In this document: in pieces, positions 31,239 through 59,110 of the stretch
Position numbering within the stretch: the first letter of the stretch is position 1
How the letters are laid out: each line of letters begins with the position of its first letter
The notes under the pieces: model-generated
Database searches by the model: none
What the model was told of the DNA's origin: nothing
What the model saw: only the letters and a program-made list of their open reading frames with translations
Assembly: GCF_000519265.1 (NCBI RefSeq)
Contig: NZ_KI912608.1
Span: 1 to 64,000, forward strand
Source of the DNA: Desulfonatronum lacustre DSM 10312
GTDB taxonomy: Bacteria > Desulfobacterota > Desulfovibrionia > Desulfovibrionales > Desulfonatronaceae
Direction: 5' to 3'
Length of the DNA stretch: 64,000 nucleotides
Program-made: the position numbers and the translations under genes

Positions 31239-31264
31239 TGTGGCAGGCCTCTCTTCCGGTGGTG

Positions 31265-35830: not shown

Positions 35831-36797
35831 TTCTTAAACCTATTTCCTTGCTAAAAAAATGAGGGACAACTCTGTTGATATGCTCATAATTTATTAGAGG
35901 ATTAAGTTTCTTTGCGAAATTTTCATCAACTGTTTGTTCATATATCTTCAAAGCTTTTTGAAAGTTGTTTCTTGTCGTTTCCTTAGAAAATGGGATGAAA
36001 ATTCGAACTTTATTAACACTCTGCAGGCAATTGTATTTTCTTAGATAATCAAATAAATGCTGAAAATTTTCAAACTCATTTTCTTTGTCTTCCATATACA
36101 CGTCAAGACCTCCAATTGTGTTTGTTTCTTTTGGCTCAGAATATCTATAAATGTGGAAAGAACCACCTATCTGTTCAATCGTAAGCGGAAGTCTTGCTGG
36201 ATCGTGATATATATTCCGTATTGGTTGTTCAGGATAAAAAAAACCGCAGAATTCTTCATCAGGAAGGTCCTTCTTGCCGCGCAGCCGTTCAATATTTGAA
36301 CATATATTTGCAAGATAACATATTTTCTTAGGTCCAATTACGGAAATAACATTACCCTTATCGATTACTATCTTTTCAGTAGCCTTTTTGAATAGTTCAA
36401 AAAAATCACTATCATACTGATTGTCATTATTAAAAATAAATAGCATACCTTTTATATTAATTGGATCGCTCGTATGTACATAATTTTTGTTCCAGTCTAT
36501 GCTTTTACGGGCGCATGTAAGTGATTCGTTGAGATTCTCTATAGCTTTTTTTAGTTCTAGTGGTTTTATTGAATTTTTTGAATAGCTTTTTAAATCACAT
36601 AATATATGAGTTATTTTATCTTCATACGGCTCTGCATATGCGAACACAACATCAGCAGGATGTGTCTTCCGATTATGTGATTGTTCGACACAAGAGAAAT
36701 TTTCATTGCGTGGACCATAAATAGACCAACCAAAATGAGTTGTTATCTCTTTGCTTATTATTTCAGCCATGGATGATATATTCACTGTTTCCGCCAT
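35823..36797 (-). CDS. Unknown protein with PD-(D/E)xK-like motif, first gene of the operon
   Basis: 324 residues. The N-terminal 75 residues look like a restriction-endonuclease-type fold: Glu residues at 12/17, then HPADVVFAY with D49, then HILCDLKSY with D68 and K70. The D49-x18-D68-x-K70 spacing fits PD-(D/E)xK nucleases. The rest is not recognised (AIENLNESLTCARK, VISVIGPKKICYLANICSN and others). Heads a three-gene AT-rich operon. The nuclease assignment is from motif spacing only and needs structural confirmation. Confidence 0.7.
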   Translation of the reverse strand: MAETVNISSMAEIISKEITTHFGWSIYGPRNENFSCVEQSHNRKTHPADVVFAYAEPYEDKITHILCDLKSYSKNSIKPLELKKAIENLNESLTCARKSIDWNKNYVHTSDPINIKGMLFIFNNDNQYDSDFFELFKKATEKIVIDKGNVISVIGPKKICYLANICSNIERLRGKKDLPDEEFCGFFYPEQPIRNIYHDPARLPLTIEQIGGSFHIYRYSEPKETNTIGGLDVYMEDKENEFENFQHLFDYLRKYNCLQSVNKVRIFIPFSKETTRNNFQKALKIYEQTVDENFAKKLNPLINYEHINRVVPHFFSKEIGLRNE

Positions 36798-37520
36798 GTT
36801 ATGTTTCCTTCGAAAAAGTTATTTGTGCTTTTGTTTGGCTTGTGCTCTTTTTTCTGTTCATAAAAAATAAATAGCGTAATTATTTTAAGTTGACAATAGC
36901 ACGCTTAATCTAATGCGTATAGCAGGCTTTGAATGAATGATGTCCCTGCAAAAAATCAGCGCCAATTATGCAGACAGCCCCCAGTGTTGCCCCTGTAGGG
37001 GGATTCTTTTACCGTTTTCATCGAGTGTGAAGTCAATGACTCCAAGGCCATCCGGTGCTTGCCCCGTGGGCGGACAAACCAAGTTGACTTCGTGTTTTTG
37101 AGTTCCTGGTGATTGTCATCAATATCGTAACGTTGACAGCCAACATGCATTATGAAGATTCCATAAAAAAGTTATCCTAGAAGGGGTATGCATAATCAGC
37201 CTTTCTTAGCAATAGGTGAGAATATCAGAATCAACCCTCCATCGCTAGGAACCCCTCTCACAAACTCCAACACAGAACATCACCAATTCCACCAGAGCTC
37301 TTATTCCCGCTATTTGCTCGCAATGCTCTCTACAACCATCCCGAAGACTTCCCGGATGCGCTCGACTCAATGGAAATTTTGCCTGAAAATATGGCAAAAC
37401 CAGGGTCTCGCTTGTCGTTGCACCAAGCCTTAACAGCCGCCGGCTCTGGTCGACCGAAAGAGCCCAGGGCCTCGGCCTACCTTGGGCAACGAAAAAACAT
37501 AGAACCAGCTACTCTCAGGC
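36798..37520. pseudogene. Gene remnants between cargo modules
   Basis: No intact gene in about 720 bp. On the minus strand near 36980-37110 two frames each look protein-like: WFVRPRGKHRMALE in one, continuing in a shifted frame as GVIDFTLDENGKRIPLQGQH and ending WGLSA-stop. That fits a frameshifted C-terminal fragment. On the plus strand, 37290-37500 reads LFARNALYNHPEDFPDALDS and onward without a start, another possible fragment. Composition is closer to host than to the AT-rich operon. Products are unknown. Confidence 0.4.
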
Positions 37521-40481: not shown

Positions 40482-40486
40482 TCAGC

Positions 40487-43063: not shown

Positions 43064-43188
43064 ACGGTAAGCCTCCTGGATTCCTGTTGCACATAGAGCC
43101 GTGACTGACTGGCGAGATATTCGAGAACCAGTCGAAGTAACTCTGTCATAGAAAGTATCGAGAATCACCTGTTCGGGTGTTTTCTTCG

Positions 43189-44355
43189 TTAAACATGGGC
43201 GGTTCCAATCGTTTCATTACTGAACAGCGAGAGCATTCTTTTGGTCTTCGAAACGTGATTTGCTATTGCCCCTATATACCTCTTTTGATCATTGAATTCT
43301 GAAACAATCTTTTTCTGGATATAAATGTTTGGAACAGGGAATCTGAATTCAGCAAGGGTCTTCCTATTGATCTTTTTCATGCTGTTACTGGTGCCTGAAG
43401 CAGTCTTCATCATGTGACGTCTACCCCGATTGGAAAGAAGCACCAATTCGAGATAAGCAGGAAACGCTTTCTGTGTATTTACTGGCAACCGCATCATAGT
43501 ATCAGGGAAGGAAACATCCGCACGATCTTCGTCAAAAATTCCTGCAAAACCAACTAAATCGACAGTATTCGAACGTGAAATGAGTAAATCACCTTTATAT
43601 AGGGTAGCTCTACTCATTTTGTTTGTTTTTGTGACAGGTTTTAGATTTCCTCGGACATACCCGTTTGCGGAAAGGGCTGCTAACGACAATACCCAGTGGC
43701 CAGTTTCATCGGATGATGGAGGAGCTGAGCAGCCGCTCTCTGGGCTGCCGGAAAGGACTTCTGGTAGCGACATTTCAGGACAATTCAGAGTTTCTAGAGT
43801 GTGCTCAAAGCGAAATTGAGAAACAGTGTGAATGTTGTTAAGGGCCTCTTGATAGGCCGATGCCGCCTCATCAGCCGCCCACAGGATTTCAGCAATGCGC
43901 TTCTGTTCATCAAGCGGCGGGAGCGGGAACTCCTCCACTTGCAACGTTTTCCAGTTTATCGTTGGCGAGAGCGAGCCCACTGATATTTCAATGGCCCGTT
44001 TCATGAACACGTCGGACTGCAGAAAGAACGGCAGAAAGTCTGGCAGAATCATCGTGGGGATTGCCCGGATAACCATGGCGTGGGCCGAGCAGATTCCATC
44101 AAACTCAGCCACGGCGAGTTTGCGCTGATAAGCCCGGCGGCGACCGAAAATCACGTCGCCCTTTTTGAAGGTTAGCTTCTGCCCGGTAACATCGGACGGA
44201 TGACCCCATTGGCGCAGATGAATCGTGCTGGGATCAAGATGTTCTAATCCGACATAAACGTCGGTCTTCGCATCTGCCGGGTCCACCCGCACCGCAACGT
44301 TCTGGGCGATGTCGCCGAACTTGACCATGCGCCAGCCGGGTTTCAATTCATTCAT
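43189..44355 (-). CDS. hsdS: Type I restriction specificity subunit HsdS
   Basis: 388 residues from ATG 44355, which overlaps the preceding stop by four bases. Two target-recognition domains are each followed by a conserved helical repeat: EFPLPPLDEQKRIAEIL near residue 155 and FRFPVPNIYIQKKIVSEF near 345. The whole HsdS layout is present, so two-part asymmetric DNA recognition is expected. One HsdS serves two different HsdM proteins encoded upstream. Confidence 0.93.
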   Translation of the reverse strand: MNELKPGWRMVKFGDIAQNVAVRVDPADAKTDVYVGLEHLDPSTIHLRQWGHPSDVTGQKLTFKKGDVIFGRRRAYQRKLAVAEFDGICSAHAMVIRAIPTMILPDFLPFFLQSDVFMKRAIEISVGSLSPTINWKTLQVEEFPLPPLDEQKRIAEILWAADEAASAYQEALNNIHTVSQFRFEHTLETLNCPEMSLPEVLSGSPESGCSAPPSSDETGHWVLSLAALSANGYVRGNLKPVTKTNKMSRATLYKGDLLISRSNTVDLVGFAGIFDEDRADVSFPDTMMRLPVNTQKAFPAYLELVLLSNRGRRHMMKTASGTSNSMKKINRKTLAEFRFPVPNIYIQKKIVSEFNDQKRYIGAIANHVSKTKRMLSLFSNETIGTAHV

Positions 44356-45173
44356 GCGCCACCCCCATGCCGATGCTCCTGATGCGGAACTTTGACGCAT
44401 TGATCGAGCTTTCTGTGCAGCATGGAAATCAGGGTGAGGTAATCAGCGGCGTCGGTCTCTCCCTGCCACAGGATTTTGGGGCCATGTGCCAGTGGGTTAC
44501 GAATCGCCGCTGAACATCCCTTCAGAAGCTGTGCAAATCCTTTATGTTCCGACTTTTCGGTTTCAGTCTGAAGGGTGTTGAAGGCAAGAGATGGCTTTTC
44601 AACCGAGAAAACCCTGTCAATCAGATTCGTACCATCGGCTTCAATTCCGGAAAGATCACGGATTCTCTGAAACAATCCTTTGCAGGCCTCAAACACTGCA
44701 TGGAAGTAGTTTTCCTGCATAAGTTCTGGTTGGCAGTATTTGTAGACTTCAGGATGAGTGTTGCGGGGGGCCAACTTTTTTCGAACACCCTGTGCTCGTG
44801 CCTCTGCTTCATCCAGGGTTCTGGCTTGAGTTGTATGTCTGAATTGGCCGTCCTTGCCGTATTCGAGGCCGTGCAGAATTAAAACAGCGTTCAGTTCGCT
44901 GCGATGGTGTTCGAAATCATCTCGTTTTCCAACGAAGCGTGTTGGGACAAGGTAGGATCTGATGAAAGCAAGAATCTGATTGGCGCTTTTTGTCGTTACC
45001 TGGCTTTTCAGAAATATCGAATTAATGCGCCGCCACTTGGTGGATACGCCAGAGTCATCAAGTAGACGGTTTGTCTGGAGATAACGACTGATGTCTGTTC
45101 CTGATCCGGCCTCTCCTAGCACTTTGGCAATGGCCTCAACTGTACCCGGATCAAAAGGAGGGTGTGCACTCAT
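44352..45173 (-). CDS. TIGR02391-like HEPN-type protein
   Basis: 273 residues resembling the TIGR02391 (Ymh) family, often found in restriction and abortive infection loci. A C-terminal HEPN-like signature is visible: AAIRNPLAHGP with Arg-x4-His. HEPN proteins are frequently RNases. It overlaps hsdS by four bases and the DUF1016 gene upstream by four, so it is translated as part of the restriction operon. The role in this operon is unknown; a suicide RNase or an assembly factor is conceivable. Confidence 0.78.
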   Translation of the reverse strand: MSAHPPFDPGTVEAIAKVLGEAGSGTDISRYLQTNRLLDDSGVSTKWRRINSIFLKSQVTTKSANQILAFIRSYLVPTRFVGKRDDFEHHRSELNAVLILHGLEYGKDGQFRHTTQARTLDEAEARAQGVRKKLAPRNTHPEVYKYCQPELMQENYFHAVFEACKGLFQRIRDLSGIEADGTNLIDRVFSVEKPSLAFNTLQTETEKSEHKGFAQLLKGCSAAIRNPLAHGPKILWQGETDAADYLTLISMLHRKLDQCVKVPHQEHRHGGGA

Positions 45174-46204
45174 TCTTCAATCCCCTCAAGCAAGGCAGCG
45201 ATCTCTTCCGGCTGGGGCAGTTGTCCCCTCAATTCCTTGGGCAGCGTCTTGGTGATTTCATAGGTTGCCACGCCGATGGGTTTGCGGGCGTCGTGCAGGG
45301 CATATTCAACTATGGTGCGGCTCTTTTCCTTGCAGAGAATGATGCCAATAGAGGGATTCTCGTCCTCTTGGCGTACCTGCCGATCCAGCGCGGTCAGGTA
45401 AAACTGCATCTTTCCGACGAACTCCGGCCTGAATTTGCCGATTTTCAGCTCAATGGCCACCAGACAACGCAACCGGCGGTGGAACAGCAGCAGGTCGAGG
45501 AAGAACTCTTCGCCATCGACCTCCAACCGGTACTGGCTGCCCATGAAAGCGAACATGCCGCCCATGGCCCGCAGGAAGTCTTCGATCCTGGCGATCAGCG
45601 CCCGTTCCAGCTCCCGCTCGCTGTGCTTCTCGCCCAGCTCCAGAAAATCGAAGGTGTATTCGTCCTTCACCGCCAATTTGGCCTGAGCCCGCAACTCCGG
45701 CGTCAGCGCCTGGTCGAAACTGGTCTGCCCGAGCAGAGATTTTTCGTAGCTTTGGTTGTCGATCTGGTGAATGAGGACGTTCTTGGACCAGCCGAACTTT
45801 CGGGTCATGCGGATATAGAATTCTCGTTCAAGAGGGTCCTTGCAGCGCTCCAGGATGGCCAAGTTGTGGCTCCAGCCGATTTCTCGCACCAGTGGTGCGA
45901 GTTTTTCCAGACCAGCGTACGCCTCGAAAAAAGCCTTCATTCGCCAGAGGTTGGAGGCCGAAAAGCCGCCCACACCGGGAAACTCCGTCCGCAGATCGGC
46001 GGCGAGCTGTTCCACCACCGCCTTGCCCCAGCCTTCAACATCCTGCCGCTCCACGATCATCCGTCCGATATCCCAGTACAGCCCGATCAGCTCGGTATTG
46101 ACAGCTTTCAGCGCGGCGTACTGCGCCGACCGGATGCGCTCTTTCACCTCGGCGAGGAGGTGCGTGTAGCCCGGGCTTGGATTGTTTTTGTTCAGTTCGC
46201 TCAT
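45170..46204 (-). CDS. DUF1016/YhcG-type PD-(D/E)xK protein
   Basis: 344 residues from ATG 46204, with GGAG six bases upstream. An in-frame extension to 46507 lies within hsdM and is probably not used. The N-terminal DUF1016_N region (LLAEVKERIRSAQYAALKAVNTELIGLYWDIGRMIVERQ) is followed by a C-terminal nuclease-like domain: FFLDLLLFHRRLRCLVAIELKIGKF, an Asp...Glu-x-Lys core. YhcG-type proteins recur in type I restriction loci. It overlaps the next gene by four bases. Confidence 0.9.
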   Translation of the reverse strand: MSELNKNNPSPGYTHLLAEVKERIRSAQYAALKAVNTELIGLYWDIGRMIVERQDVEGWGKAVVEQLAADLRTEFPGVGGFSASNLWRMKAFFEAYAGLEKLAPLVREIGWSHNLAILERCKDPLEREFYIRMTRKFGWSKNVLIHQIDNQSYEKSLLGQTSFDQALTPELRAQAKLAVKDEYTFDFLELGEKHSERELERALIARIEDFLRAMGGMFAFMGSQYRLEVDGEEFFLDLLLFHRRLRCLVAIELKIGKFRPEFVGKMQFYLTALDRQVRQEDENPSIGIILCKEKSRTIVEYALHDARKPIGVATYEITKTLPKELRGQLPQPEEIAALLEGIEE

Positions 46205-46253
46205 TCTTTTCTCCGCTTTCATGATCGTGGCCCTTTTCCACCGGAGGCCCCTA

Positions 46254-47912
46254 TCAATTCCCGACGTCAGGAAATTGATCCGTGTGTTGCCCAAGCATCT
46301 CGAAAAGGCCATGCATCGACTCCCGCAAAGCCAGCGAGCTTTTCTGCCAGTTTGCAATGGCGTGTTTGAGGTTGACCGTTTCGGCTGCCCCATTGCCATT
46401 GCCATTGCCATTGCCATTGCCGTTCCCGTTGTCCGCTCGAACGTAGAGCGGGATGCTGAGACTGCTGCCTTTCTCCCGGATTTCGTCATTGGCAACCACG
46501 CGGGCAAAGCCGTCCTCGTCGCCGAAGGCCCGGTAGGCGGAGACTATGCGTTGAATGTGGTCGTCAGTAAGGAAGCTCTGTGCCCGCTCGCGGGTCACCT
46601 CGTTCACGGCATTGATGAAGAGCACCTTGTTCCTGCGATCCTTGGGCTTGTTCATCCGGCAGATGACGATGCATGCTTCCATGGGCGAGTTGTAGAAGAG
46701 GTTCGGACCGAGGCCGAGCACGCATTCCACTACGTCATGAACGACCAGCTTTTCGCGCATCGCAGATTCTTCATTACGAAAGAGGACGCCGTGCGGGAAG
46801 AGAATCGCGCAGCGACCGATCTTGGCCTTCATGCTCTTGATGATGTGCTGCCAGAAGGCATAGTCGGCCCGGCCCTGAGGCGGGGTGCCGTAGATGTTGC
46901 GGCCCCAAGGGTCGGCGGACCAGGCGGCGCGGTCCCATTGCTTGATGGAATACGGCGGATTGGCAAGGACCACGTCGAACTGCATCAGCCGGTCGCCCTC
47001 GACAAAGGCGGGATTGGTCAAGGTATCGCCCCGGACGATGCGGAAGTCCTCGATGCCGTGCAGGAACAGGTTCATCCGGCCTATGGCTGAAGTGAGCAGG
47101 TTGCGTTCCTGGCCGAAGAGACGCAGATTTCGCCATTCCTTGTTTTGCCGTTTCAGCTGGGCGACGGAGGAGAGCAGCATGCCCGCCGAACCGCAGGTGG
47201 GGTCATAGATCGACTCGCCTGGTTTGGGCTCGAGCATCTCGGTCATCAGATGGACCACGGTGCGGTTGGTGTAGAATTCCGCGGCGGTGTGACCGGAGTC
47301 GTCGGCGAATTTCTTGATCAGAAACTCATAGCCCACGCCAAGTTCATCCTCCGGGCAGTTGGCCAGGGACAGAGTCTGGGTGCTGAAGTGCTCGACCAGC
47401 TCGCGGAGCATGTGATCCGGCAGCCGGTCCTTGTTGGTCCACTGGGCATCGCCGAAGACGCCGTAAAGGGTGTCCGGATTGCCCCGCTCGATCTCTCGCA
47501 GGGCGTCTTGAATCACCGTCCCCACGTTTGCGACCTTCGTCCGGGTGGTCTTCCAGTGGGCTTCCTCCGGAATTTGAAACCGATGCTGCTCGGGCAGAGC
47601 GGCATATTCCAGATCACCGCCGGATTCCTCCAAAGCGTCAGCGAGTTCTTCATCATAGACGTCGCAAAGGCGCTTGTAGAAGAGCAGCGGGAAGATAAAC
47701 TGCTTGTAATCCCCGGCATCGATGTAGCCACGCAGCAGAGTGGCAGCGCCCCAAAGGTAGGATTCAAGTTGGGATTGGGCGATGTGCTTGGTCGTCATAT
47801 CACCCAACTTCTTTTTGAGGACAGTCCTGGCTTTTTCTGCGGCTTCACGTGTAAAGATTTTGTTATTCGCACCGTAATCTTTCGGCCAAGATCCCTGTTT
47901 TTTGACCGTCAT
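46254..47912 (-). CDS. hsdM: Type I DNA methyltransferase HsdM, copy 1
   Basis: 552 residues. Helical HsdM_N domain (YLWGAATLLRGYIDAGDYKQFIFPLLFYKRLCDVYDEE), SAM-binding motif I DPTCGSAG (237-244) and catalytic NPPY (318-321), an N6-adenine methylase. A seven-unit Asn-Gly linker (residues 495-508), encoded by a hexamer repeat, separates the catalytic core from the C-terminal helix that should contact HsdS. Its ATG overlaps the stop of copy 2 by four bases. Confidence 0.94.
   Translation of the reverse strand: MTVKKQGSWPKDYGANNKIFTREAAEKARTVLKKKLGDMTTKHIAQSQLESYLWGAATLLRGYIDAGDYKQFIFPLLFYKRLCDVYDEELADALEESGGDLEYAALPEQHRFQIPEEAHWKTTRTKVANVGTVIQDALREIERGNPDTLYGVFGDAQWTNKDRLPDHMLRELVEHFSTQTLSLANCPEDELGVGYEFLIKKFADDSGHTAAEFYTNRTVVHLMTEMLEPKPGESIYDPTCGSAGMLLSSVAQLKRQNKEWRNLRLFGQERNLLTSAIGRMNLFLHGIEDFRIVRGDTLTNPAFVEGDRLMQFDVVLANPPYSIKQWDRAAWSADPWGRNIYGTPPQGRADYAFWQHIIKSMKAKIGRCAILFPHGVLFRNEESAMREKLVVHDVVECVLGLGPNLFYNSPMEACIVICRMNKPKDRRNKVLFINAVNEVTRERAQSFLTDDHIQRIVSAYRAFGDEDGFARVVANDEIREKGSSLSIPLYVRADNGNGNGNGNGNGNGAAETVNLKHAIANWQKSSLALRESMHGLFEMLGQHTDQFPDVGN
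46392..46421. repeat. Hexamer repeat inside hsdM copy 1
   Basis: Five perfect copies of ATTGCC on the plus strand, followed by two degenerate units, encode an Asn-Gly run in the minus-strand gene. Gain or loss of units keeps the reading frame and alters linker length. Confidence 0.9.
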
Positions 47913-49426
47913 AACAAACCTTCCCTATTGAGTAGGGACTTCAGTCTATCTTCGGCCGCATACGCCGCCACCAATGATTCCTTGAGGTTGGAAATAGCCT
48001 GTTCGACGGTCATGTTTTCTTCCTCGATGACCGGTTCCACATAGCGCGGGATGTTCAGATTGAAATCGTTTTCCCGGATTTCATCCAGGCCGACCACTCG
48101 ACATGCGCCCTCGACATCCTGGTAATCCTGATACCACCTCAGAATCTTGTCCACGTGTTCGGGCAGAAGTTCGTTCTGCGCACGACCGGTCTTGAACTCT
48201 TTCGAGGCATCGATGAAAAACACCTTCCGTCGATGTTCCTTGGACTTGGTGTTCCGAAAAACCAATACGCACGGCGCAAGGCCGGTGCCGTAAAAGATGT
48301 TCTGGCCAAGTCCGATCACTGCTTCCAGGATGTCCATTTCCAGCAACTTGCGTCTGATTATGCCTTCCTTGGACATCCGGAACAGCACGCCATGGGGAAG
48401 CACCACGGCCATGCGACCGGTTTTGTCGGCCATGGACTTGATCATGTGCTGCACCCAGGCGAAGTCACCCGATTTGGCAGGAGGAAGGCCGGCGAAGTTT
48501 CGGCCATAGGGATCGTTGACCCAGACGTCGTCACCCCACTTTTCCAGGGAGAAGGGGGGATTAGCGATCACGCAATCAAACGTCGCCAGGCTGTCGCCTA
48601 GGTAAAAGGCAGGCTGTCTCAGGGTGTCGCCGCGTTCAATGTGAAAATCCTCGGCACCATGGAGAAAAAGGTTCATTCGGGCAATGGAGGACGTGGTCAG
48701 GTTTTTTTCCTGGCCATAGAGCTTGCCCAGCATGAGATTCTCGTCGCCTCCATGATCCTTGACGTAGTGCAAGGCCTCCAGAAGCATGCCCCCGGTCCCG
48801 CAGGCCGGATCATAAATGCTGTCACCGGCCTTGGGTGCAAGGATGCGAACCATCAGAGCGACCACGGAACGCGGCGTGTAGAACTCCCCGGCCTTTTTGT
48901 TCGTGAGGTCGGCGAATTTTTTGATCAGATATTCATAGGCTTGACCGAGGACGTCAGCTTTGCAGTAACCATTGCCCAAGTTCAATGTTGAGAAATGCTC
49001 GATCAGATCCTTGAGCAATCCGTCGGAGAGGCGGTCCTTATTGGTCCACTGGGCGTCGCCGAAGATGCCGTGCAAGGTGTCCGGATTGGCCTGTTCGATG
49101 CACCGCATGGCTTTTTGCAGCGCATGGCCGATATTGGCGCTCTTGGCTCGAATATCCCGCCAGTGGCAGTTTTCTGGAATCTGGAAGCGATGATTCTCCG
49201 GAAACTGCGCAAACTCAACGTCACCGTTGGACTCTTCCAGAGCAACGGCATATTCTTCGTCATAGACATCGGAAATTCGTTTGAAGAACAGCAGCGGGAA
49301 GATGTAGGTCTTGAAGTCGGCAGCGTCGACGGGACCACGGAGGATGTTGGCGGATTCCCAGAGATGTCCGGATAGGGTCCCGATATCCAGATCGACTGAA
49401 TTGTTATTTCCGTTCCTCCTGCTCAT
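47909..49426 (-). CDS. hsdM: Type I DNA methyltransferase HsdM, copy 2
   Basis: 505 residues. Same architecture as copy 1 but clearly diverged: HsdM_N domain, motif I DPACGTGG (206-213) and NPPF (289-292). It is the first gene of the restriction operon. The two copies share the order of motifs and segments such as FGDAQWTNKDRL, so they are paralogues, not a split gene. A heterodimeric M1M2S methylase is possible. Confidence 0.94.
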   Translation of the reverse strand: MSRRNGNNNSVDLDIGTLSGHLWESANILRGPVDAADFKTYIFPLLFFKRISDVYDEEYAVALEESNGDVEFAQFPENHRFQIPENCHWRDIRAKSANIGHALQKAMRCIEQANPDTLHGIFGDAQWTNKDRLSDGLLKDLIEHFSTLNLGNGYCKADVLGQAYEYLIKKFADLTNKKAGEFYTPRSVVALMVRILAPKAGDSIYDPACGTGGMLLEALHYVKDHGGDENLMLGKLYGQEKNLTTSSIARMNLFLHGAEDFHIERGDTLRQPAFYLGDSLATFDCVIANPPFSLEKWGDDVWVNDPYGRNFAGLPPAKSGDFAWVQHMIKSMADKTGRMAVVLPHGVLFRMSKEGIIRRKLLEMDILEAVIGLGQNIFYGTGLAPCVLVFRNTKSKEHRRKVFFIDASKEFKTGRAQNELLPEHVDKILRWYQDYQDVEGACRVVGLDEIRENDFNLNIPRYVEPVIEEENMTVEQAISNLKESLVAAYAAEDRLKSLLNREGLL

Positions 49427-49528
49427 TCAACTTGATCCTGTCTGGTTTTGTCAGCGCGGTAGCATGTTCACGTCATCTATCATCTTACAATGATTGCTCG
49501 AACGTATTAGCAGGCAAACATTAAAAAA

Positions 49529-51112
49529 TTACATCTCCAAATATAGACGTTTTGCCCAACCATGAATAGAATCCTGGTCCAATGAAGGTTTTTTTGACGA
49601 TGTCTTAGGATGGGATATGCGTTTGTAGTTACTTCCAAACATTTGATTAAGAAATGATGTAGGCCATACTAAAGAGTTCTTCAATAAATTAAGTTCTAGT
49701 TCATCAATGAGTATGTTCCAGTTTGTAATTGAATTGATATTTTTTAAGAGCAATGTTGATAAACATTGTTTACTATCTGATGTGTCAACTTCAATTAGAG
49801 CGTATACTAAATTATTTTTCTTTACGAAATAAACGGCAAGACAGCGGGGATTGCCATCGTCAAGCAAGTGTTTAGAGCATCTTTTAATTTTTCGAATTTT
49901 CTTAATTTTTTTAAAAACATGTGTGCAGTTGGGCATCTTTAACAGCAGGGAAATCATTAACATAAATAATTTAAATTTATTGACATATAGGTGAGTATCG
50001 TCGCTCATATCTTCCAGCCCGTCATAATCAGCCGAGCGTAGCGTTCCCAGAATACTCCCTTCATCCGTGCTAACTTCTTCTATCCATGCTTTGGATGTGG
50101 TGTTTGTGGTATCTACATTTCTACAGCCAGCGGACCGCTTTTTTCCGACAGCAATCCGCGTGGTTTTAATAGGTTTCGTAAATGAAATAGATACAAGAGG
50201 AGTATTAATACGTTTTACAGATGTATCAGAAAAAGGCTCTTGATGATCATCAATTAGAGATTCATTGTCTGGTGGCAGTGGTGTAGATGCAATACGACCG
50301 TTTCCAGATTCACTCTCTGAAAATTTTGGATCATGAAACTCAACAAATCTAGGATAATTACAATTTATATTTAATATTTTGTGAATTTCAGTAATGAGAA
50401 ATTTTTTTGAGTTTTTATCGTAACGGCCACGAAAAGTAAGCTTAGCATTTTCAAGGTTTGGCGGGTCGAACTGAAAATTCCACCTGCGGTATTTATCATT
50501 CTCATAACCGTTGAGAAGTTGATATTTATAAATACTTTCGAATGATCGCCGTGCATCATCGTCTGTTAATATCCATGCCAAATGACGTCTGAGATTATGA
50601 TCTTCTCTGACGTATTGTGGTAATGAGCAGCACGGCAAAATAGTCACCGTGGCCTCGCTCGTACCATCAAATCGCTGAACTTCAAAATCTTGACTTAATC
50701 CTTGATGAATTAATGATAGTCTTGTCAAATACGCGTTATGATAAAATAGTACTCGAGCGAGTTCAAGCTGTGGCAAATAATACTCATAATAATCATCTTT
50801 AAAAATAAAGCACAATTGCTTTTTATCTTGATATGGGATTGTCGGGATACAACTGGAATTGATTCGGTCCGTTCGCCAATCGTGAAATTTATTGACCAGC
50901 AGTTTTCTTTCAAAACCGGCAGGATTGTGTTCTGCAGTCGGATTCAAAACTCTAAGTCTTGCAAGTGCTGGAATTTGAGAGATTCCAAAAAAATCAGTAG
51001 GTTGCTGAGGATTTAAGCCAACATTTATCTTCCAATTTGAGTTTGTTGTATCACGGAAAAGTGAACCAATGCTTGTAATTGTACTGTCTTGTTGTACATT
51101 TTTGAATTTCAT
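49529..51112 (-). CDS. tnsE: Tn7-like target selector TnsE
   Basis: 527 residues similar along its length to Tn7 TnsE: the N-terminal ITSIGSLFRDTTNSNWKINV, YLPQLELARVLF, NFQFDPP and the C-terminal LLEVD-like ALIEVDTSDSKQCLSTLLLKNI and KNSLVWPTSFLNQMFGSNYKRISHP. TnsE directs transposition to replicating lagging-strand DNA and conjugal plasmids by binding the sliding clamp and recessed 3' ends. Unusually AT-rich. It lies one base after tnsD, in Tn7 order. Confidence 0.92.
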   Translation of the reverse strand: MKFKNVQQDSTITSIGSLFRDTTNSNWKINVGLNPQQPTDFFGISQIPALARLRVLNPTAEHNPAGFERKLLVNKFHDWRTDRINSSCIPTIPYQDKKQLCFIFKDDYYEYYLPQLELARVLFYHNAYLTRLSLIHQGLSQDFEVQRFDGTSEATVTILPCCSLPQYVREDHNLRRHLAWILTDDDARRSFESIYKYQLLNGYENDKYRRWNFQFDPPNLENAKLTFRGRYDKNSKKFLITEIHKILNINCNYPRFVEFHDPKFSESESGNGRIASTPLPPDNESLIDDHQEPFSDTSVKRINTPLVSISFTKPIKTTRIAVGKKRSAGCRNVDTTNTTSKAWIEEVSTDEGSILGTLRSADYDGLEDMSDDTHLYVNKFKLFMLMISLLLKMPNCTHVFKKIKKIRKIKRCSKHLLDDGNPRCLAVYFVKKNNLVYALIEVDTSDSKQCLSTLLLKNINSITNWNILIDELELNLLKNSLVWPTSFLNQMFGSNYKRISHPKTSSKKPSLDQDSIHGWAKRLYLEM

Positions 51113-51113
51113 T

Positions 51114-52628
51114 TCATTGTACCAAACTATTTATATATTTTAGCGTAGCCCTTTTCATTCTCTCTTCGCTCAGTTTCGAAATTCTTAGTAAGCGCCACCT
51201 TGATGGTGAATCATAACTCTGACGTAACTCTTCTAATGCATTTCGTAGTCTTCGAATCTGATAATCTTCAACGCTTTCGGCTTGAGCATCGAGAAATGCC
51301 TTTGAAAGAGGCATACGGTTGAGATTCTTTTCGTATGTCGTGGAAAACCCAACCATCTTTTGAAAATACGCTTTAGAACGTCTAGGCCCATCTGTGTTGT
51401 CCTTCAGTAAGACATCCACTTGATGAAGAGCTTGTAAAAATACTTGATCTCTTTCACTCCAATTCACTTTGCACTTTGATGTAAGGTTTGAGCGGTCATA
51501 AGCATGAGATGCATTAAAATCAAGTAACCAATTTGAGTGTTTCCGATAAAGTCTGGCGTAAAGGGCTGGGGCAATTTTTCTTGCCCTTGTGGGAGGATGG
51601 CATGACAAAAGCCGTTGCCAACTTTCTTGGTCTGGACTAAGATCAAAGTTACTGATTTTATTGATCTCAACTGGTGGTTTCCGCTTATTGGCAGGATACT
51701 GCTGAACTTGATCGAGAACACTGTCGATACGCCATGATTCGCCGATTATTGCTTGATTCACCACGATATGTTGAAGATAGCTGAAACATTTTCTGTGTTT
51801 ACGAAATATTGATCGCACCCAATCCTCTTCATCATCGTCTGACTCAGCGGGCGTAAGATTATATCTTGCCAGCCATTCAGTTGGCCAGAACCGAAGCACT
51901 TTTTCTTTAACAGCATGATGGTTTATGTGTCCGGTCCCACGATTAAGCCCATGTTGAAAAGCCAAGTCCTGATAATAAGCCGTCCATTGCTCATGAGATG
52001 AGGATGGTCGAGCGGGACGTTCAAGTAATTGCCGTACTTGGGTTGATATCCGTGTCGTTATGGATGCGCAAGGAATTTGCGGAACTTGAGGACAATATTC
52101 TGGTGCTGCAGCAATGAACCTATGACGTTCGGCATTTGATCGGGATAATTGCGTGTTGATCAAATATCCGTGTTTTGAACATGATTCTATCCCAGGAACT
52201 TGCCAATCTCGTATCCAATAATATTCACCATGTTCATTCTTTTGTGCCAAAAGGCAGAGTGGACAATAGCAAATATATCGAGGAACTTTAATTCGGGACG
52301 CCGTAACTCCTAATGCCAAATGTACTGCCCCTTGAGATTTTCCACGCATCCACTCCAGGCATCGCTTACGGCGTTCTTCAGGTACAAAAGGTGCGTAAAT
52401 AGGAAAAAGGGTGTGGTTGTATATTATTCCTTCGGCACTGTATTTTGTTGGTAGTAATCGAGATACTGCTGAAAGATGATTGGGTAAATCAATTGTGGCA
52501 ATGATTCCACGCGACTGAAATATTTCATCCAGCAGCTCTTTTGGACTTGTTATACCTTGTCGAATACCAGCTCTGGCAATGGTGCTGTAAATTAGCTCAT
52601 CTGGATATGGTAAGGGGAAATTCAACAC
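51114..52628 (-). CDS. tnsD: Tn7-like target selector TnsD (TniQ family)
   Basis: 504 residues from GTG 52628, giving MLNFPLPYPDELIYSTIARAG, which matches the Tn7 TnsD start; a TTG at 52652 would overlap tnsC. The TniQ zinc site is complete: C122xxC125 (YCPLC) and C150xxH153 (CSKH). C-terminal SVEDYQIRRLRNALEEL and RWRLLRISKLSEER are TnsD features. TnsD binds the end of glmS and recruits TnsC, which matches the observed insertion next to glmS. Confidence 0.94.
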   Translation of the reverse strand: MLNFPLPYPDELIYSTIARAGIRQGITSPKELLDEIFQSRGIIATIDLPNHLSAVSRLLPTKYSAEGIIYNHTLFPIYAPFVPEERRKRCLEWMRGKSQGAVHLALGVTASRIKVPRYICYCPLCLLAQKNEHGEYYWIRDWQVPGIESCSKHGYLINTQLSRSNAERHRFIAAAPEYCPQVPQIPCASITTRISTQVRQLLERPARPSSSHEQWTAYYQDLAFQHGLNRGTGHINHHAVKEKVLRFWPTEWLARYNLTPAESDDDEEDWVRSIFRKHRKCFSYLQHIVVNQAIIGESWRIDSVLDQVQQYPANKRKPPVEINKISNFDLSPDQESWQRLLSCHPPTRARKIAPALYARLYRKHSNWLLDFNASHAYDRSNLTSKCKVNWSERDQVFLQALHQVDVLLKDNTDGPRRSKAYFQKMVGFSTTYEKNLNRMPLSKAFLDAQAESVEDYQIRRLRNALEELRQSYDSPSRWRLLRISKLSEERMKRATLKYINSLVQ

Positions 52629-52630
52629 TT

Positions 52631-53374
52631 CTAAGCCATGGAACGCAGCCAATTTTCAGTGTCAAAAAGCAAGCGTTCACGATTTAAGCAATCCTGGAAT
52701 TTATCTTCAGTATCAGCCTGAGACCGCAGAAAGCGTAGATCTCGTGAATCCAAAGTATGCCAGTCTTTCATCTTAATTATTTTGGCCTTTGGCTTCGGCG
52801 TCACTTCCTTATTATTACCACTCTGGCTCCATTCGATAACCAGCATCATCCAATCTTTCATGCACAAACCAGGGTGTTCATTTAGTGCCCTGTTTATTAG
52901 AGGCTCGAGTAAGCCTGAATCAAAACCCATGTCAACAAGCATATTATGTAATCTAATCGCTATGCTATTTCCTTGATACTTGGGGACGGAGTTAATTTTG
53001 TCCTGCTTAGATTGTAAAAGATTGCTAAGTTCCAAAATTTTTATATCCACATCAGGAATTGTCAGATCTGAAAAGCGCGTGATTTTCGATATATCCCCTG
53101 AGCGCAAAGCATCAATCATAGGATGGATAGGTTTCAGTTCGTCATGATATACTTTCTGCATTAATTCAGGGGTAATCCGTTCGATTCCAGTTACTATTGC
53201 ACGTATCTGTGACAGAACAAACAATTTAATGACTATGTCCATGATTCCCTGAGAAAGATCATACCATGTTTCACGGAGATCATTAGTAATGTCGGTTGCC
53301 TTGGTAAGCCACTGGTACTTCCACAAACAGTTGGTGAAGGCTCCCCATTCTGTTTTAGACACATTCTCATCCGA
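52631..53374 (-). pseudogene. tnsC: TnsC C-terminal part, after the in-frame stop
   Basis: The reading frame continues directly from the TAA at 53375-53377 as SDEN and then, from GTG 53362, 243 residues that align with the C-terminal region of Tn7 TnsC (TEWGAFTNCLWKYQWL, DLSQGIMDIVIKLFVLSQIRA, ERITPELMQKVYHDELKPIHPMIDALRSG). That region carries the TnsA/TnsB-contacting tail. It might be made separately by re-initiation: GGATGAG precedes the GTG by five bases. Confidence 0.85.
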
Positions 53375-54280
53375 TTAAGGTTTACTCAGCGGCTCCCATA
53401 AAATTGCTCCAAATCCTGCTCCTCGGCGTGCCGATCGTAAATCCATTTCGAAAATTGGCCTCGCCTTGGGAGTACCAACCATCACAATCGGAACAGAAAT
53501 CTCGTTCACCAGTGTGACAAAAAAATTGAGCATGCGCTCTGCGCCACCCGAGTTCTTGACATTTAAATGCTGAATTTCATCAATAACCAACAAACCAATC
53601 GCATGTGTGTTTGCAATTTGCGCCATTAATGCGATAAGTGTTTCAACACTGTGTCTTTTTTGTACAAATCGGCGGACATAATTTGTGGCCATGATCAAAT
53701 CAATTTCTCTGAAAAAGTTATGACACAAGCTTTTCAGTGAACCGTCATGGGGACAGTCTATCTTGAGAAAAACAACTTGTATAAAATTATAGTTCTCATG
53801 ATAGATCATTTGTGGATATGTGCCGAGAATACGATTCAGGGAAATTGTTTTTCCCGATCCAGAACAACCAATAAAAACCATGCTTTTCGCGGTGGACTGA
53901 ATATGTTCAAACCGAAAAACTCCGAGATCTCCTTGCTGTATACGTTCGTACCCATTCTGAATGTGGGAATTCAATAGGCCAGTAGCGAGATTCCGTCCGA
54001 CATAACCTTGACGTATCATAACTGAGAGTTTGGATTCCAGATGGACATGACGAGATAATGGCTGGAAGAAGCCATCCAATAATTGAGATATTACATGGAT
54101 TCGTGTTTGTCCGGCGAGGTAAATGTCTGTCGGATTAAATTTTATATTGCTGGACAATCCTATTTTCAGTTTTTGCAGGTCTAAAATGGGAGGCAACGCT
54201 TCGATAAACGGGTTTCCTTTAAACCTATCAACTCCAGTATTTTGATAAACTGCTTTAACCATCCTTTCTGGTAGCGTCAT
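53375..54280 (-). CDS. tnsC: TnsC AAA+ regulator, N-terminal part ending at a premature stop
   Basis: 301 residues. Walker A GCSGSGKT (138-145), Walker B LLVIDE (230-235), and conserved LRSARRGAGFGAILWEPL just before the stop. TnsC normally has about 555 residues, passing target information from TnsD or TnsE to TnsAB. Here TAA ends the protein after LSKP, while the same frame goes on for 248 codons. The fragment keeps the AAA+ core and the region that contacts TnsD, but lacks the part that contacts TnsA. The ATG overlaps the tnsB stop by four bases. Confidence 0.88.
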   Translation of the reverse strand: MTLPERMVKAVYQNTGVDRFKGNPFIEALPPILDLQKLKIGLSSNIKFNPTDIYLAGQTRIHVISQLLDGFFQPLSRHVHLESKLSVMIRQGYVGRNLATGLLNSHIQNGYERIQQGDLGVFRFEHIQSTAKSMVFIGCSGSGKTISLNRILGTYPQMIYHENYNFIQVVFLKIDCPHDGSLKSLCHNFFREIDLIMATNYVRRFVQKRHSVETLIALMAQIANTHAIGLLVIDEIQHLNVKNSGGAERMLNFFVTLVNEISVPIVMVGTPKARPIFEMDLRSARRGAGFGAILWEPLSKP

Positions 54281-56352
54281 TCTTTGTCTCCAAAAAGATC
54301 ATCGATGAAGCTAGGATATGCATAATCTTCAGGTTCTTGATGTAAATTGGTAACAGTGGCTTTGGATTTTGGCTCGGGTTTGTTTTCCGTCGATAAGCGC
54401 TGCTGCCGCTCAATATCGCGTGCTTCACGCCGGTTGTTGCCAATGTCAGTCAGCGCTTTCCTTTTAGTTGGCCCCAGATGGGAAGGGCGTAACTTCTCTG
54501 CGTTTTTAATTGTTTCCTGGATAGAGTTTTCCAGATCCTTTTTGCTATGTTGTTCAAGCATTTTCGCAGCGCCTGTTGATTTTTTGATTTGCTGCTTGCT
54601 TTCCCATAGTTCCCACATGGATCGCCCCCTATATTCTCTTGAGCGATCGGTCAAATAGCATTCCCAATAATCGGGTTTTCCTTTGTCAGGAAATAGATAA
54701 ATATGTTCCGCAATCCCTGGATCGTAAGCAGCCACGAATGGACCTGGCCTTTGTTGCCTTGTTCTGTGTAACCAGCCTGAAGCTATGAGTTCTTTGCAGG
54801 TGTAAAAAGCACCAAAACATCGGATACCTAGATCTGAAAGTGTTACTTTTTCGCGGGGAAGTAGTGCAATTTTTAAATCAGTCTCAGAGGCATTCTTAAG
54901 ACGACCGCTACGATTTTGGATTCCCCATTGCCAAATGCGAATCGGGACAGCTGGAAGATCGGTAGGCATATCAGATTCGCGATCATACTTAGTCAGAACG
55001 GAGTAAAGGTTTCGATGCAGGATCGACCCAACGATAATTTTTGTGAAATCCTGCATTGTTAATGCCGCATCTAGTCGATAATCTTTTCCGCCTTGTTTTT
55101 TTATGGTTGTTCCTGTGACAACCCCGGGGGCATATGGCTTGAAATCGGCTTGTATCGTGCAAAAGTACCTCTCTACTATGCCTTTGGCATCACCACGATA
55201 TGGAGAAGCAGTCTCAATTCTCACTCCAAATGCCTGTTCAAGATATTCTATCTGATGGCCAAGTAGTTCGCCGCGATCTGCAAGAATTGCCTCTGGTAAA
55301 CCAATTGAAGGCCATTCTTCGGATTCAATGTCATACCCAAATCTTTTACAGATTTTGGTCTTATCCGTCATTGCATTGATTAAGGCCAACATGGCTGTTG
55401 CGTAGGATGGATTCTCAAGTCCGACATAAAATCCAGTTATCATCCTGCTGAAAACATCAACAACAACGTACAAAGTTGGTCGTCCGATGATTCTTTGCCT
55501 GTCTGAGGATAATAAATATATATCTGCGATGGTAGCATCAATTTCATATCGCGCACCTGGCCCATGAGTGTTGACGGTTGCTGTGCTCAATAAAGGTCTA
55601 ATATCTTTATTATACTTTATCCTGTTTGCCCTTAGGCGGATACGATCTGGCCGATTATATTCTCGTTCGTAAAAATATCGCAGTTGTCCAATTGTGGGAT
55701 AATCCTCTTTTGGAATGTTAGGATTGATGGATTCATAGATGCTCAAGAAACGACGGTGAGCATAGGCTATAGGCTTTTTTTTCTCTGTGAGGTAATAACG
55801 ATCAAGAACGATACGGAATAAGCGCTCGATGTCGGCATCAACTATGGACCCTTCCCCAGGGGTGGTGCTTCTAGGGCGTCCCAGTTTTTTTTCAGAGTTG
55901 GAACGTCTTTTCCCCTTACCTCCTGAATTATCGTAATCCGGAAGTAGGGCGTTGGGAGTTGACCCACGTTGCCAATACTGGCGGAGATAAGAATATATTG
56001 TTTTTTTGGCTATTCCACTTTGGTCACTAGCCTGTTGAACCAATGCTCCTCTACCAGTCCTATTAAAAATATTAGGATTTTGTATCAGGCTTTCAATGAC
56101 CGACAAGCGCTTGTCCCGTACCTGCTGAGAAATGGAACCTTGCTCTGGCAGTTGAGTAACAAGATGTTTATAGGGATCATCCACGTTTCTCATGCATTCT
56201 GAAAGGATTGCAGCCTCAACCTCCGATGCTGATATGTATTCTGGAAAAGAATGAATTGAATCAATATTAATCAATACATGTCCATCATTAGTGATGTTCA
56301 GAACCCGATGTCGTGTTTCTCCGTAAGTGATTACATCATTGATTCGCAGCAT
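54277..56352 (-). CDS. tnsB: Tn7-like transposase TnsB
   Basis: 691 residues, a DDE recombinase that binds the end repeats and joins 3' ends to the target. The catalytic triad aligns with Tn7: D272 (YEIDATIAD), D359 (ILADRGE) and E394 (GIVERYF). Helix-turn-helix-like regions lie near residues 100-130. The C-terminal ~100 residues are charged and end YPSFIDDLFGDKE, probably the tail that contacts TnsC. Overlaps tnsA by 17 bases and tnsC by four. Confidence 0.95.
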   Translation of the reverse strand: MLRINDVITYGETRHRVLNITNDGHVLINIDSIHSFPEYISASEVEAAILSECMRNVDDPYKHLVTQLPEQGSISQQVRDKRLSVIESLIQNPNIFNRTGRGALVQQASDQSGIAKKTIYSYLRQYWQRGSTPNALLPDYDNSGGKGKRRSNSEKKLGRPRSTTPGEGSIVDADIERLFRIVLDRYYLTEKKKPIAYAHRRFLSIYESINPNIPKEDYPTIGQLRYFYEREYNRPDRIRLRANRIKYNKDIRPLLSTATVNTHGPGARYEIDATIADIYLLSSDRQRIIGRPTLYVVVDVFSRMITGFYVGLENPSYATAMLALINAMTDKTKICKRFGYDIESEEWPSIGLPEAILADRGELLGHQIEYLEQAFGVRIETASPYRGDAKGIVERYFCTIQADFKPYAPGVVTGTTIKKQGGKDYRLDAALTMQDFTKIIVGSILHRNLYSVLTKYDRESDMPTDLPAVPIRIWQWGIQNRSGRLKNASETDLKIALLPREKVTLSDLGIRCFGAFYTCKELIASGWLHRTRQQRPGPFVAAYDPGIAEHIYLFPDKGKPDYWECYLTDRSREYRGRSMWELWESKQQIKKSTGAAKMLEQHSKKDLENSIQETIKNAEKLRPSHLGPTKRKALTDIGNNRREARDIERQQRLSTENKPEPKSKATVTNLHQEPEDYAYPSFIDDLFGDKE

Positions 56353-57154
56353 AACGATCCCGTAAATATAGGAAGTCTGATGATGCTTTCAAATCTCCAA
56401 CAACCAAAGATGTCCAAGGATTTGCAATATCGAACAGAAAAACCCTCAAAGCCATAAGCGAGCGAATCTTTTGCAAAGATTCACCGGGTTCAAGCGAATA
56501 TGCTTGATCCAGCATCATTGCAGCCTGAGTAATTTTTTTTGCTGGTTCTGCAAGGAAGAAATTCAAGTATAGAGGTGCTATATTGAGCAGATCCTCAATT
56601 CCTTCAAGCTTAACTTGGGAGGGGTAAAGCCAGGCTATATTTTTTGCTACGGTGTTTGGTATTTGTCTTTCTGTCAACAAGTGCCAAGGAACGTTATGCT
56701 TTTTCCAATATTGCCGCTCAATTTCAAGTTTTTCAATGACTCTGGGATTATAAAGATCAGATGATGTCTTTACTTGTATCGCCATTCTTGGAAGGTCTGG
56801 CTTGCTGGTATCAACAAGAAAATCCGTCGACATCACCTGATCTTTACCCCGCACTCCAGGGTGACGAATGCAAGCTTTTCTTGCGATCTCCAATGTGTCG
56901 TCAAGTGAGAGGGGGAATTGCTCCCGGATATCCGTCACGACTGGATTCCAGTCAAACAAAAAAAAGGCTTTTAGCTCAAGGTCAGAGAGCAGATGATGGG
57001 TTCGTTGTGCCTGGATTCCCCAAACACGATGGGACCTGCCTAAGGAAGGCAGGTCCCTTATCGTCAGCCAAGGCTGATAATCTTTGCCGGTGCCTTCTCC
57101 ACGTCCCTGCTTTATCCACTTGGAGGAATGGGAATCGAGATTGATGATGGTCAT
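56336..57154 (-). CDS. tnsA: Tn7-like endonuclease TnsA
   Basis: 272 residues. The restriction-enzyme-like active site is intact: E60 (SDLELKAFFLFD), D111 (MSTDFLVD) and Q127-V-K129, equivalent to E63, D114 and K132 of Tn7. TnsA cuts the 5' strands so that the element moves by cut-and-paste. It is the first tns gene, 42 bp inside the right-end TnsB sites, so occupancy of those sites should repress the operon, as in Tn7. Confidence 0.95.
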   Translation of the reverse strand: MTIINLDSHSSKWIKQGRGEGTGKDYQPWLTIRDLPSLGRSHRVWGIQAQRTHHLLSDLELKAFFLFDWNPVVTDIREQFPLSLDDTLEIARKACIRHPGVRGKDQVMSTDFLVDTSKPDLPRMAIQVKTSSDLYNPRVIEKLEIERQYWKKHNVPWHLLTERQIPNTVAKNIAWLYPSQVKLEGIEDLLNIAPLYLNFFLAEPAKKITQAAMMLDQAYSLEPGESLQKIRSLMALRVFLFDIANPWTSLVVGDLKASSDFLYLRDRYAANQ

Positions 57155-57195
57155 GCTCCGAACCTTTTGAAATCATGATTTGATACCGGAGCGAA

Positions 57196-57261
57196 GTTAC
57201 CAACTTTATTTTAAAGTTACAATCTTTATTTTTAAGTTACCAACTTTATTTTACTCCCACA
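57196..57261. repeat. Right transposon end with three packed TnsB-type sites
   Basis: GTTACCAACTTTATTTT occurs at 57196-57212 and 57236-57252, with a variant missing one base at 57216-57233. Spacing is 20 bp, so the sites abut. The terminus is CTCCCACA at 57254-57261. Dense sites at the right and spaced sites at the left is the Tn7 asymmetry. Tn7 itself has four right-end sites; only three are evident here. Confidence 0.92.
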
Positions 57262-57266: not shown

Positions 57267-57290
57267 CAGCCCTCAGCCCTCAGCCCTCAC
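57262..57290. repeat. Heptamer tandem repeat, right half
   Basis: Three CCCTCAG units and a final CCCTCAC continue the array of 19604-19691. The last unit covers the glmS stop codon (57287-57289), so the repeat begins exactly at the gene end. Confidence 0.93.
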
Positions 57291-59110
57291 TCCACCGTCA
57301 CGCTTTTGGCCAAATTGCGGGGTTGGTCCACGTCCTTGCCCAGGTAGACGGCCATTTCGTAAGCGAACAACTGCAAGGCCGGCAGGGCCAGAAAGGTGTT
57401 CAGCGGGCCGTAAACCTGAGGGATCTCCCAGGAGTGGTCCACGGTCAGATCGAATCCGGACTGGCACAAGGCGATGACCCGACCGTTGCGGGCCTGGACT
57501 TCAACCAGATTGGAAACGACCTTGGGCAGCAAGGCGTCATTCAAGGCCAGGGCAAAGGTGGGGAATTCCGGCTCGATCAGGGCGATGGGGCCGTGCTTCA
57601 TTTCTCCGGCCGCATAGCCTTCGGCGTGGATGTAGGAGATTTCCTTGAGTTTCAAGGCGCCTTCCAAGGCCAGCGGGTAGGCCGGGCCCCGGCCGAGGTA
57701 GAAAAAGCTGTGCGCCGTGCTGTATTCCGGGGCCAGTTCCTGGGCCTTGCCGCGCAGGCGAGGCAGTTCGGCTTCCAAAACTTGGGGCAGGCCGAGCAGC
57801 CCGGTGATGATCGAGGTCTCCACTTCCCGAGCCAGTGTTCCCTTGCGTCGGCCCCAGTACAGGGCCAGCAGGGTCAACAGGACGAGCTGGCTGCACATGG
57901 CCTTGGTGGAGGCCACGCTGATTTCCGGCCCGGCCTGGGTGTAAATCACGCTGTCCGCCTCCCGGGCTACACTGGATCCCACCACGTTGCACAGTCCGAG
58001 CACGGGCACCCCGTGCTCCTTGGCCAGACGCATTCCGGCCAGGGTATCCGCGGTTTCTCCGGACTGACTGATGGCCAGGACGAGATCGTCCGGCATGAAA
58101 AGCGGGTTGCGATATCGGAATTCCGAGGCGATTTCCACGCGAACCGGAATTTTCGCCCACGACTCCAGCAAGTGTTGGCCCCACAGCCCGGCATGATAGG
58201 ACGTGCCGCAGGCCACGATCTGGATCTGGCCCGGGACGGGTATGGCCTCCAGCTCCGGCAGGGTCACGGACAAGGCTTTGGCGTCCACGCGTCCGGCCAG
58301 GCAATTGGCGATCACCGCGGGCTGCTCGAAGATTTCCTTGAGCATGAAGTGACGGTAGCCGCCTTTTTGCGCGGCCTGAAAATCCCAGGTGATGTGGTGG
58401 ACCTTCTTTTCCAGGGGTGCCAGAGTGGCGGCATCAAAGACCTGCCAGGAAAAAGGCTCCAACTCCACCAGTTCGCCGTCCTCCAGAAAGACGACGTCCC
58501 GTGTATAGCCCAGAAACGCCGGGATGTCCGAGGCCACGAAGTTTTCTCCCACGCCCACGCCCAGCAACAGCGGGCTGGATTTGCGGGCCGCCCAGATTTT
58601 GTTCGGCTCATCCAGGTTGAGAAAGGCTGCGGCATAGGTGCCTTCAACTTGAGCTAGAGCCTTGCTGAACGCCTCGCGTAGAGTGACGTCGGAGGTCCAG
58701 AGCTCGGCGATAAGCTGAACCAGCACTTCGGAGTCCGTATCCGAGAAAAACGTACGTCCTTTGTCTTTGAGCATTTTTCGAAGCGACTGGTAGTTCTCGA
58801 TGATCCCGTTGTGCACCAGGGCCAGGCGGCCTCCCGGGTCGCGATGGGGATGGGCGTTGCGTTCCACGGGCAGGCCGTGGGTCGCCCAGCGGGTATGGCC
58901 CAGGGCCGTGGTGGCGTGAAACATGTCCTGGCCGTTGAGACGGGTTTCCAGCTCGCACAGCTTGCCCTCGGCCCGAATGACGTGCAACTCGTCGTGCTGC
59001 GCAAAGGTTACGCCCGCGGAATCGTAGCCGCGGTACTCCAGACGCTTCAGTCCTTCCACGATGATGGGCACGGCCGGTCTGTGCCCCGCATAACCGATGA
59101 TTCCGCACAT
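57287..59110 (-). CDS. glmS: Glucosamine-6-phosphate synthase
   Basis: 607 residues. Makes glucosamine-6-phosphate from fructose-6-phosphate and glutamine, the entry to cell-wall amino sugars. The N-terminal amidotransferase starts MCGIIGYAG with nucleophile Cys2 (after Met removal, Cys1). Two SIS domains follow, with VACGTSYHAG, SQSGETADTLAGMRLAK and the C-terminal DQPRNLAKSVTVE. The last codons form attTn7, recognised by TnsD. The gene is intact because insertion was 25 bp past the stop. Confidence 0.97.
   Translation of the reverse strand: MCGIIGYAGHRPAVPIIVEGLKRLEYRGYDSAGVTFAQHDELHVIRAEGKLCELETRLNGQDMFHATTALGHTRWATHGLPVERNAHPHRDPGGRLALVHNGIIENYQSLRKMLKDKGRTFFSDTDSEVLVQLIAELWTSDVTLREAFSKALAQVEGTYAAAFLNLDEPNKIWAARKSSPLLLGVGVGENFVASDIPAFLGYTRDVVFLEDGELVELEPFSWQVFDAATLAPLEKKVHHITWDFQAAQKGGYRHFMLKEIFEQPAVIANCLAGRVDAKALSVTLPELEAIPVPGQIQIVACGTSYHAGLWGQHLLESWAKIPVRVEIASEFRYRNPLFMPDDLVLAISQSGETADTLAGMRLAKEHGVPVLGLCNVVGSSVAREADSVIYTQAGPEISVASTKAMCSQLVLLTLLALYWGRRKGTLAREVETSIITGLLGLPQVLEAELPRLRGKAQELAPEYSTAHSFFYLGRGPAYPLALEGALKLKEISYIHAEGYAAGEMKHGPIALIEPEFPTFALALNDALLPKVVSNLVEVQARNGRVIALCQSGFDLTVDHSWEIPQVYGPLNTFLALPALQLFAYEMAVYLGKDVDQPRNLAKSVTVE

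Follow-up and report, generated by a model that had tools for sequence, protein, structure and literature searches.

A single premature stop codon interrupts tnsC in a Tn7-type element that is otherwise intact

We found that the tnsC gene of a Tn7-type element behind glmS in Desulfonatronum lacustre DSM 10312 is interrupted by one in-frame TAA. It is very probable that this is a recent nonsense mutation in an otherwise intact element, which has left the truncated product non-functional and the element fixed in place. The element lies in the window, by which we mean the whole 64,000-nucleotide stretch that was analysed. Under this explanation, the mutation would have arisen at a codon that most of the relatives read use for serine, translation would stop once the alpha/beta core of the AAA+ domain has been made, giving a product of 301 residues that retains Walker A and Walker B but has neither the helical AAA+ part nor the TnsA-binding tail. 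A TnsC truncated in this manner would be expected to form no working ATPase ring, to bind TnsD poorly and to recruit no TnsAB, so that the element would stay where it is behind glmS together with the defence genes it carries; movement would presumably require TnsC supplied from elsewhere. The first-pass annotation had offered two options, namely a freshly disabled element or a split or read-through TnsC. The former is favoured here, as none of the relatives examined has the stop and the remaining core genes are unbroken, and for the latter no positive support was found beyond the undecayed downstream half of the gene.

The Tn7-type element and its cargo

We characterized the element in which the interrupted gene is found, with the coordinates of its features collected in Table 1. 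It was noted that the element resembles Tn7 in several respects. The genes tnsA, tnsB, tnsC, tnsD and tnsE lie in order beside one end, the TnsB and TnsC sequences are near the solved Tn7 proteins, and tnsA, tnsB, tnsD and tnsE are all open with recognisable domains. The CCCH-type motif of TnsD and the expected TnsA motifs were present by pattern, although the identities given to the TnsA, TnsB and TnsD motifs are those that we assume. Both ends were found, with inverted TGTGGG termini and three TnsB-type AAATAAAGTTGGTAAC-like repeats each, which are presumably bound by TnsB by analogy with Tn7. The insertion lies about 25 bp past glmS and is accompanied by a 5-bp duplication; the duplicated GCCCT sits in a heptamer array, so its recurrence there could also arise by chance. 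The earlier description of a complete Tn7-like element thus agrees with the open tnsA, tnsB, tnsD and tnsE genes, their domains and the two ends. Judged by sequence, the element is of Tn7 type with a broken tnsC and is not a working Tn7.

Table 1. Features of the Tn7-type element and its target gene (window coordinates).
Feature	Coordinates	Strand	Description
Whole element	19692..57261	.	37,570 bp; TGTGGG ends; GCCCT at both flanks
Left end	19692..19841	+	Three TnsB-site-like repeats (AAATAAAGTTGGTAAC at 19702, 19767, 19822)
tnsE	49529..51112	-	527 aa; PF18623
tnsD	51114..52652	-	512 aa; TTG start overlaps tnsC end; PF15978, PF06527
tnsC 3' part	52631..53374	-	247 codons + stop; PF11426; ORF listed from GTG 53362
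Premature TAA, codon 302	53375..53377	-	Sense codon in 10/10 relatives read there
tnsC 5' part	53375..54280	-	301 codons + TAA; N-terminal region + AAA+ alpha/beta core; AAA_22, TniB
tnsB	54277..56352	-	691 aa; Tn7 TnsB 7pik, E 3.9e-202; DDE-type motifs by pattern
tnsA	56336..57154	-	272 aa; PF08722, PF08721
Right end	57190..57261	-	Three TnsB-site-like repeats, 20-bp spacing (57251, 57231, 57211)
glmS	57287..59110	-	3' end = attTn7 target; 25 bp from stop to element

Apart from the stop in tnsC, the element differs from Tn7 in its cargo. Tn7 carries resistance genes, whereas a defence cargo takes their place here, with type I restriction-modification and Wadjet-type Jet genes. Using PADLOC, we found matches to JetA, JetC and JetD of the Wadjet system and to a type I restriction enzyme. 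The cargo also includes two HsdM, one HsdS and one YhcG-family nuclease. The Wadjet-type operon spans 21528-29185, and the ORF at the place of JetB within it (22969-23691) had no PADLOC match at E 0.001. Two further cargo proteins matched PADLOC models, one of 366 aa (34730-35830; Hp2, E 5.8e-31) and one of 893 aa (40487-43168; PDC-S28, E 5.5e-114).

A CCCTCAG heptamer array was also noted around the element, with 12 copies on the left (19604-19687) and 3 on the right (57263-57283). A search of the genome for three exact copies in a row (21 bases) found no further occurrence, and insertion of the element into this array therefore seems likely.

The interrupted tnsC frame

The tnsC gene is read on the minus strand from an ATG at 54280 through 301 codons to the TAA at 53377..53375 (codon 302), which is followed by 247 same-frame sense codons and the terminal stop at 52633-52631. 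This is the only in-frame TAA, as the first-pass annotation had claimed with the same coordinates, and the gene accordingly encodes no full-length TnsC AAA+ regulator. Both frames had also been said to match Tn7 TnsC, and this was borne out by PDB sequence matches: residues 8-299 of the upstream part aligned with residues 6-297 of the Tn7 TnsC chain (8glu, E 4e-116; 7mbw, E 1.5e-115), and the downstream part aligned with residues 306-489 (E 5e-42). The TnsA-binding domain PF11426 was detected by Pfam at the end of the downstream part, and the upstream part contains GCSGSGKT and LLVIDE, which we take to be the Walker A and Walker B motifs. The TAA lies two codons past the stretch that aligns with the Tn7 residues FWDPIQ, in keeping with the earlier placement of the stop in the FWDPIQQTQ linker. 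The GTG noted in the first pass is likewise present at 53362, separated from the TAA by 12 bases (4 sense codons) and preceded by a GGATGAG that ends 3 bases upstream. One earlier detail required correction, as Tn7 TnsC had been given about 549 residues and is reported to have 555 aa (PMC2918618, excerpt).

Comparison with related TnsC copies

A single sequence provides no chance test for the significance of one stop, and the control is the comparison with relatives. The check for the same stop in related elements, proposed with the first annotation, was made, and none of the ten loci read at codon 302 outside the source genome had a stop there, with serine present in seven and alanine in three. 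A sibling element at the same glmS site of another genome of the genus (G002; L013-L015) encodes an intact 549-aa TnsC with a sense codon at this position, and its identity to the two parts of the window tnsC is 88% and 87%. It was noted that a single substitution separates the stop from the sibling's serine codon.

The initial set of nine TnsC loci contained seven with a 551-aa TnsC, one cut by a contig start (L009) and one with a deletion and a frameshift (L010); three of the loci (L002, L003 and L005) are near-identical and not independent. A search of the class (348 genomes, own included; matches at E 1e-60 or better) recovered TnsC frames of at least 539 aa in 18 of the 19 rows from other genomes, and a draw from the phylum (395 genomes, own included; same threshold) added one row with a frame of 555 aa. 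Full-length open frames were thus found in 26 of the 29 other TnsC copies, the exceptions being L009, L010 and L031, and 18 of the 26 (17 from the class search and 1 from the phylum draw) were judged by open-frame length alone. A plasmid search returned 87 matching records, one of which aligned across more than 99% of the query with 68.9% identity, and no relative was found in a search of viral contigs. The break is not conserved among the relatives examined, as it would be in a functional split or recoded gene, and on this comparison a split TnsC was rejected as a trait of the lineage. As in a pseudogene, the orthologues are intact and the disabling lesion is confined to this copy.

With its 326-aa frame, one copy, L031, resembled another case of truncation in this linker. 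This reading was rejected, as the frame is interrupted after EWIAFTNE by an insertion that was called transposase-like by eye, and the C-terminal TnsC part was not found in the 13 kb around the locus. L031 and L010, with its internal deletion and frameshift, are similar to the window element in having lost tnsC within otherwise Tn7-like loci, and differ from it in the kind of lesion, neither having the TAA at that codon. Because these two copies carry lesions other than the TAA, loss of tnsC would seem to occur now and then by different routes, with the TAA seen here only. It was also observed that the L031/L034 region (G293 C1:3714000-3727000) contains a second similar ORF of 284 aa approximately 4.3 kb from the tnsC insertion, and that a further Tn7-like locus of that genome (L035) encodes a TnsC of 554 aa.

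Selection on the downstream half

We examined the part of the gene past the stop for signs of decay. Compared with the sibling, the downstream half had a dN/dS of 0.105, with 4 amino-acid changes on the window branch versus 6 on the sibling branch and 23 more that were ambiguous, and no further stop or frameshift was found in it. Relaxed selection, as expected of a pseudogene, was looked for past the stop and not found, and a rough Poisson upper bound limits the time without constraint to 5-10% of the branch. The undecayed downstream half counts against a long-dead gene, whereas a very young lesion would leave just such a pattern. The lack of decay implies that the stop is recent, that it is a sequencing error or that the downstream half is still used. 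Among these, a recent stop is the most likely and continued use is unlikely.

The best-surviving alternative to a recent mutation is that the TAA is an error of base calling or assembly, or a variant of a single clone, and that the gene is intact in the organism. This would account for a stop that differs from the sibling's serine codon by one substitution, for the full purifying constraint on the downstream half and for the absence of any other broken core gene, but the genome is a single contig that is 99.69% complete and the neighbouring genes are open. Substitution errors are moreover rarer than indel errors in finished genomes, which we counted against this reading. We consider such an error improbable and take the base to be real.

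Expected fate of the truncated protein

The consequences of the stop were assessed from published work on Tn7 TnsC. In two-hybrid assays of TnsC with TnsD, fragments 1-480 and 1-384 gave values of 1.0, fragments 1-332 and 1-293 gave 0.20, and fragment 1-280 gave 0.014, with empty vectors at 0.075 (PMC2918618, excerpt). In the text of that paper the result for 1-332 is described as lost interaction, while a footnote and the text place the TnsD interaction within TnsC 1-293; the paper also reports that TnsA is bound by the 50 C-terminal residues of TnsC. Because fragments 1-332 and 1-293 give only 0.20, the 301-residue product is, by analogy, probably weak in its contact with TnsD and would fail at target capture. 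Some contact with TnsD may be kept, since the footnote places the interaction within residues 1-293. The first-pass annotation had held that a split protein would uncouple target capture from transposase recruitment. That view is too simple, as the product would be impaired at the contact with TnsD besides being without the part that follows the core and without the TnsA-binding tail. We infer that the protein is dead.

Short TnsC proteins of about 330 aa are known from CRISPR-associated Tn7-like elements, and the truncated product is similar to them in being without the long C-terminal extension. However, in the CRISPR-associated proteins the alpha/beta core is still followed by a helical bundle. 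For a type I-F transposon, the TnsB hook is placed at the junction of the core and this C-terminal bundle (PMC13228271, preprint excerpt). The 301-residue product appears to end before the equivalent of that bundle. In the related IstB, sensor II is carried by the C-terminal helices (PMC11208146, excerpt). Taken with these papers, the sequence matches suggest that the stop probably falls inside the AAA+ module and not merely between two independent domains. Modelling a full-length relative with AlphaFold2 gave a structure of low confidence (mean pLDDT 41.5), and the domain statement is based on Pfam, the PDB sequence matches and the cited papers.

A different outcome would be that the truncated TnsC is kept as a product, with weak TnsD contact, like that of fragment 1-293 in the two-hybrid assays, and no TnsAB recruitment, and so locks the island in place and interferes with other Tn7 elements that arrive at attTn7, or else acts as part of a two-piece TnsC. 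We regard this as highly unlikely.

Restart and read-through

Because the first-pass annotation had suggested re-initiation just past the stop, the sequence before the GTG at 53362 was compared with other starts. Its Shine-Dalgarno (SD) energy was -3.3, versus -6.4 at the tnsC start, -2.9 at the tnsE start and 0.7 at the TTG of tnsD. The same SD-like stretch, with the same energy of -3.3, was found inside the intact gene of the sibling. When stops were placed hypothetically in the tns genes, 204 of 2430 positions (approximately 8%) had an in-frame start within 10 codons and an SD sequence at least as strong. The stretch, common to the intact sibling and matched by chance at this rate, is probably ordinary coding sequence, and as a restart site it does not stand out from the background.

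A two-piece TnsC, in which a C-terminal polypeptide restarted at this GTG acts in trans with the 301-residue part, would make use of a same-frame ORF of 243 codons with GGATGAG 3 bases before its start, and would explain why the C-terminal part is undecayed. It has against it the presence of the same stretch in the intact sibling gene, an SD energy weaker than that of the tnsC start (a weakness that is not exclusive on its own, given the values for tnsE and tnsD), a split that probably falls within the AAA+ module and the absence of any other split among the 29 further TnsC copies. Among the papers listed in literature searches, none dealt with a split TnsC as judged from the titles and the first part of the abstracts. 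We consider this arrangement very unlikely.

Read-through of the stop to yield enough full-length TnsC for low-level mobility is equally far-fetched: a single stop in an otherwise constrained frame would suit it, but no UAA-reading tRNA (tta anticodon) was present among the 45 tRNA genes found, in a list that is incomplete and without Ile-GAT and Ala-TGC, TAA terminates 13 of the 36 window ORFs picked as genes, and in E. coli termination at TAA is efficient when the next base is T. Nor was a second TnsC found in the genome, in which the searches recovered one TnsC and one TnsB.

The lesion is thus probably an ordinary and recent nonsense mutation, with little that is new in it, and most likely not a new kind of two-piece protein. 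A new mechanism would arise only if the truncated or the downstream product were made and used. The value of the case, a modest one, is in a delimited defence island in which one stop cuts tnsC, whereas both ends are present and the genes for the transposase and the target selectors are open. This element and its intact sibling of the same genus and site lend themselves to a paired study of the way in which islands of this kind come to be fixed.

The sibling element and the glmS site in the genus

We surveyed the glmS site in the seven other genomes of the genus. In three of them (G003, G004 and G006), glmS adjoins the left-flank gene with no element between, and G002 contains the sibling element at this site. 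The flank gene fell outside the stretch fetched for G005 and G007, and the G001 contig terminates close to glmS. At the empty site of G003, the corresponding intergenic space was observed to hold a heptamer array of another sequence (ACTGAAT).

The sibling shares the site and the tnsA-E order with the window element and differs in its intact TnsC and, by eye, in the ORFs that adjoin tnsE. It was noted that its putative left end (L015, approximately 15770-15800) has no TGTGGG by the first TnsB-type repeat, while the right end does, and this difference may alter the sibling's own mobility. Among the core genes, tnsB had 29 amino-acid changes on the window branch versus 13 on the sibling branch, with no such excess in tnsA, tnsC or tnsD and a weaker one in tnsE (39 versus 26). 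The tnsE genes (49529-51112 in the window versus L013 11612-13195) had a dN of 0.47 between these same-genus elements, compared to 0.06-0.15 for tnsA-D, and this divergence looks as if tnsE had been exchanged.
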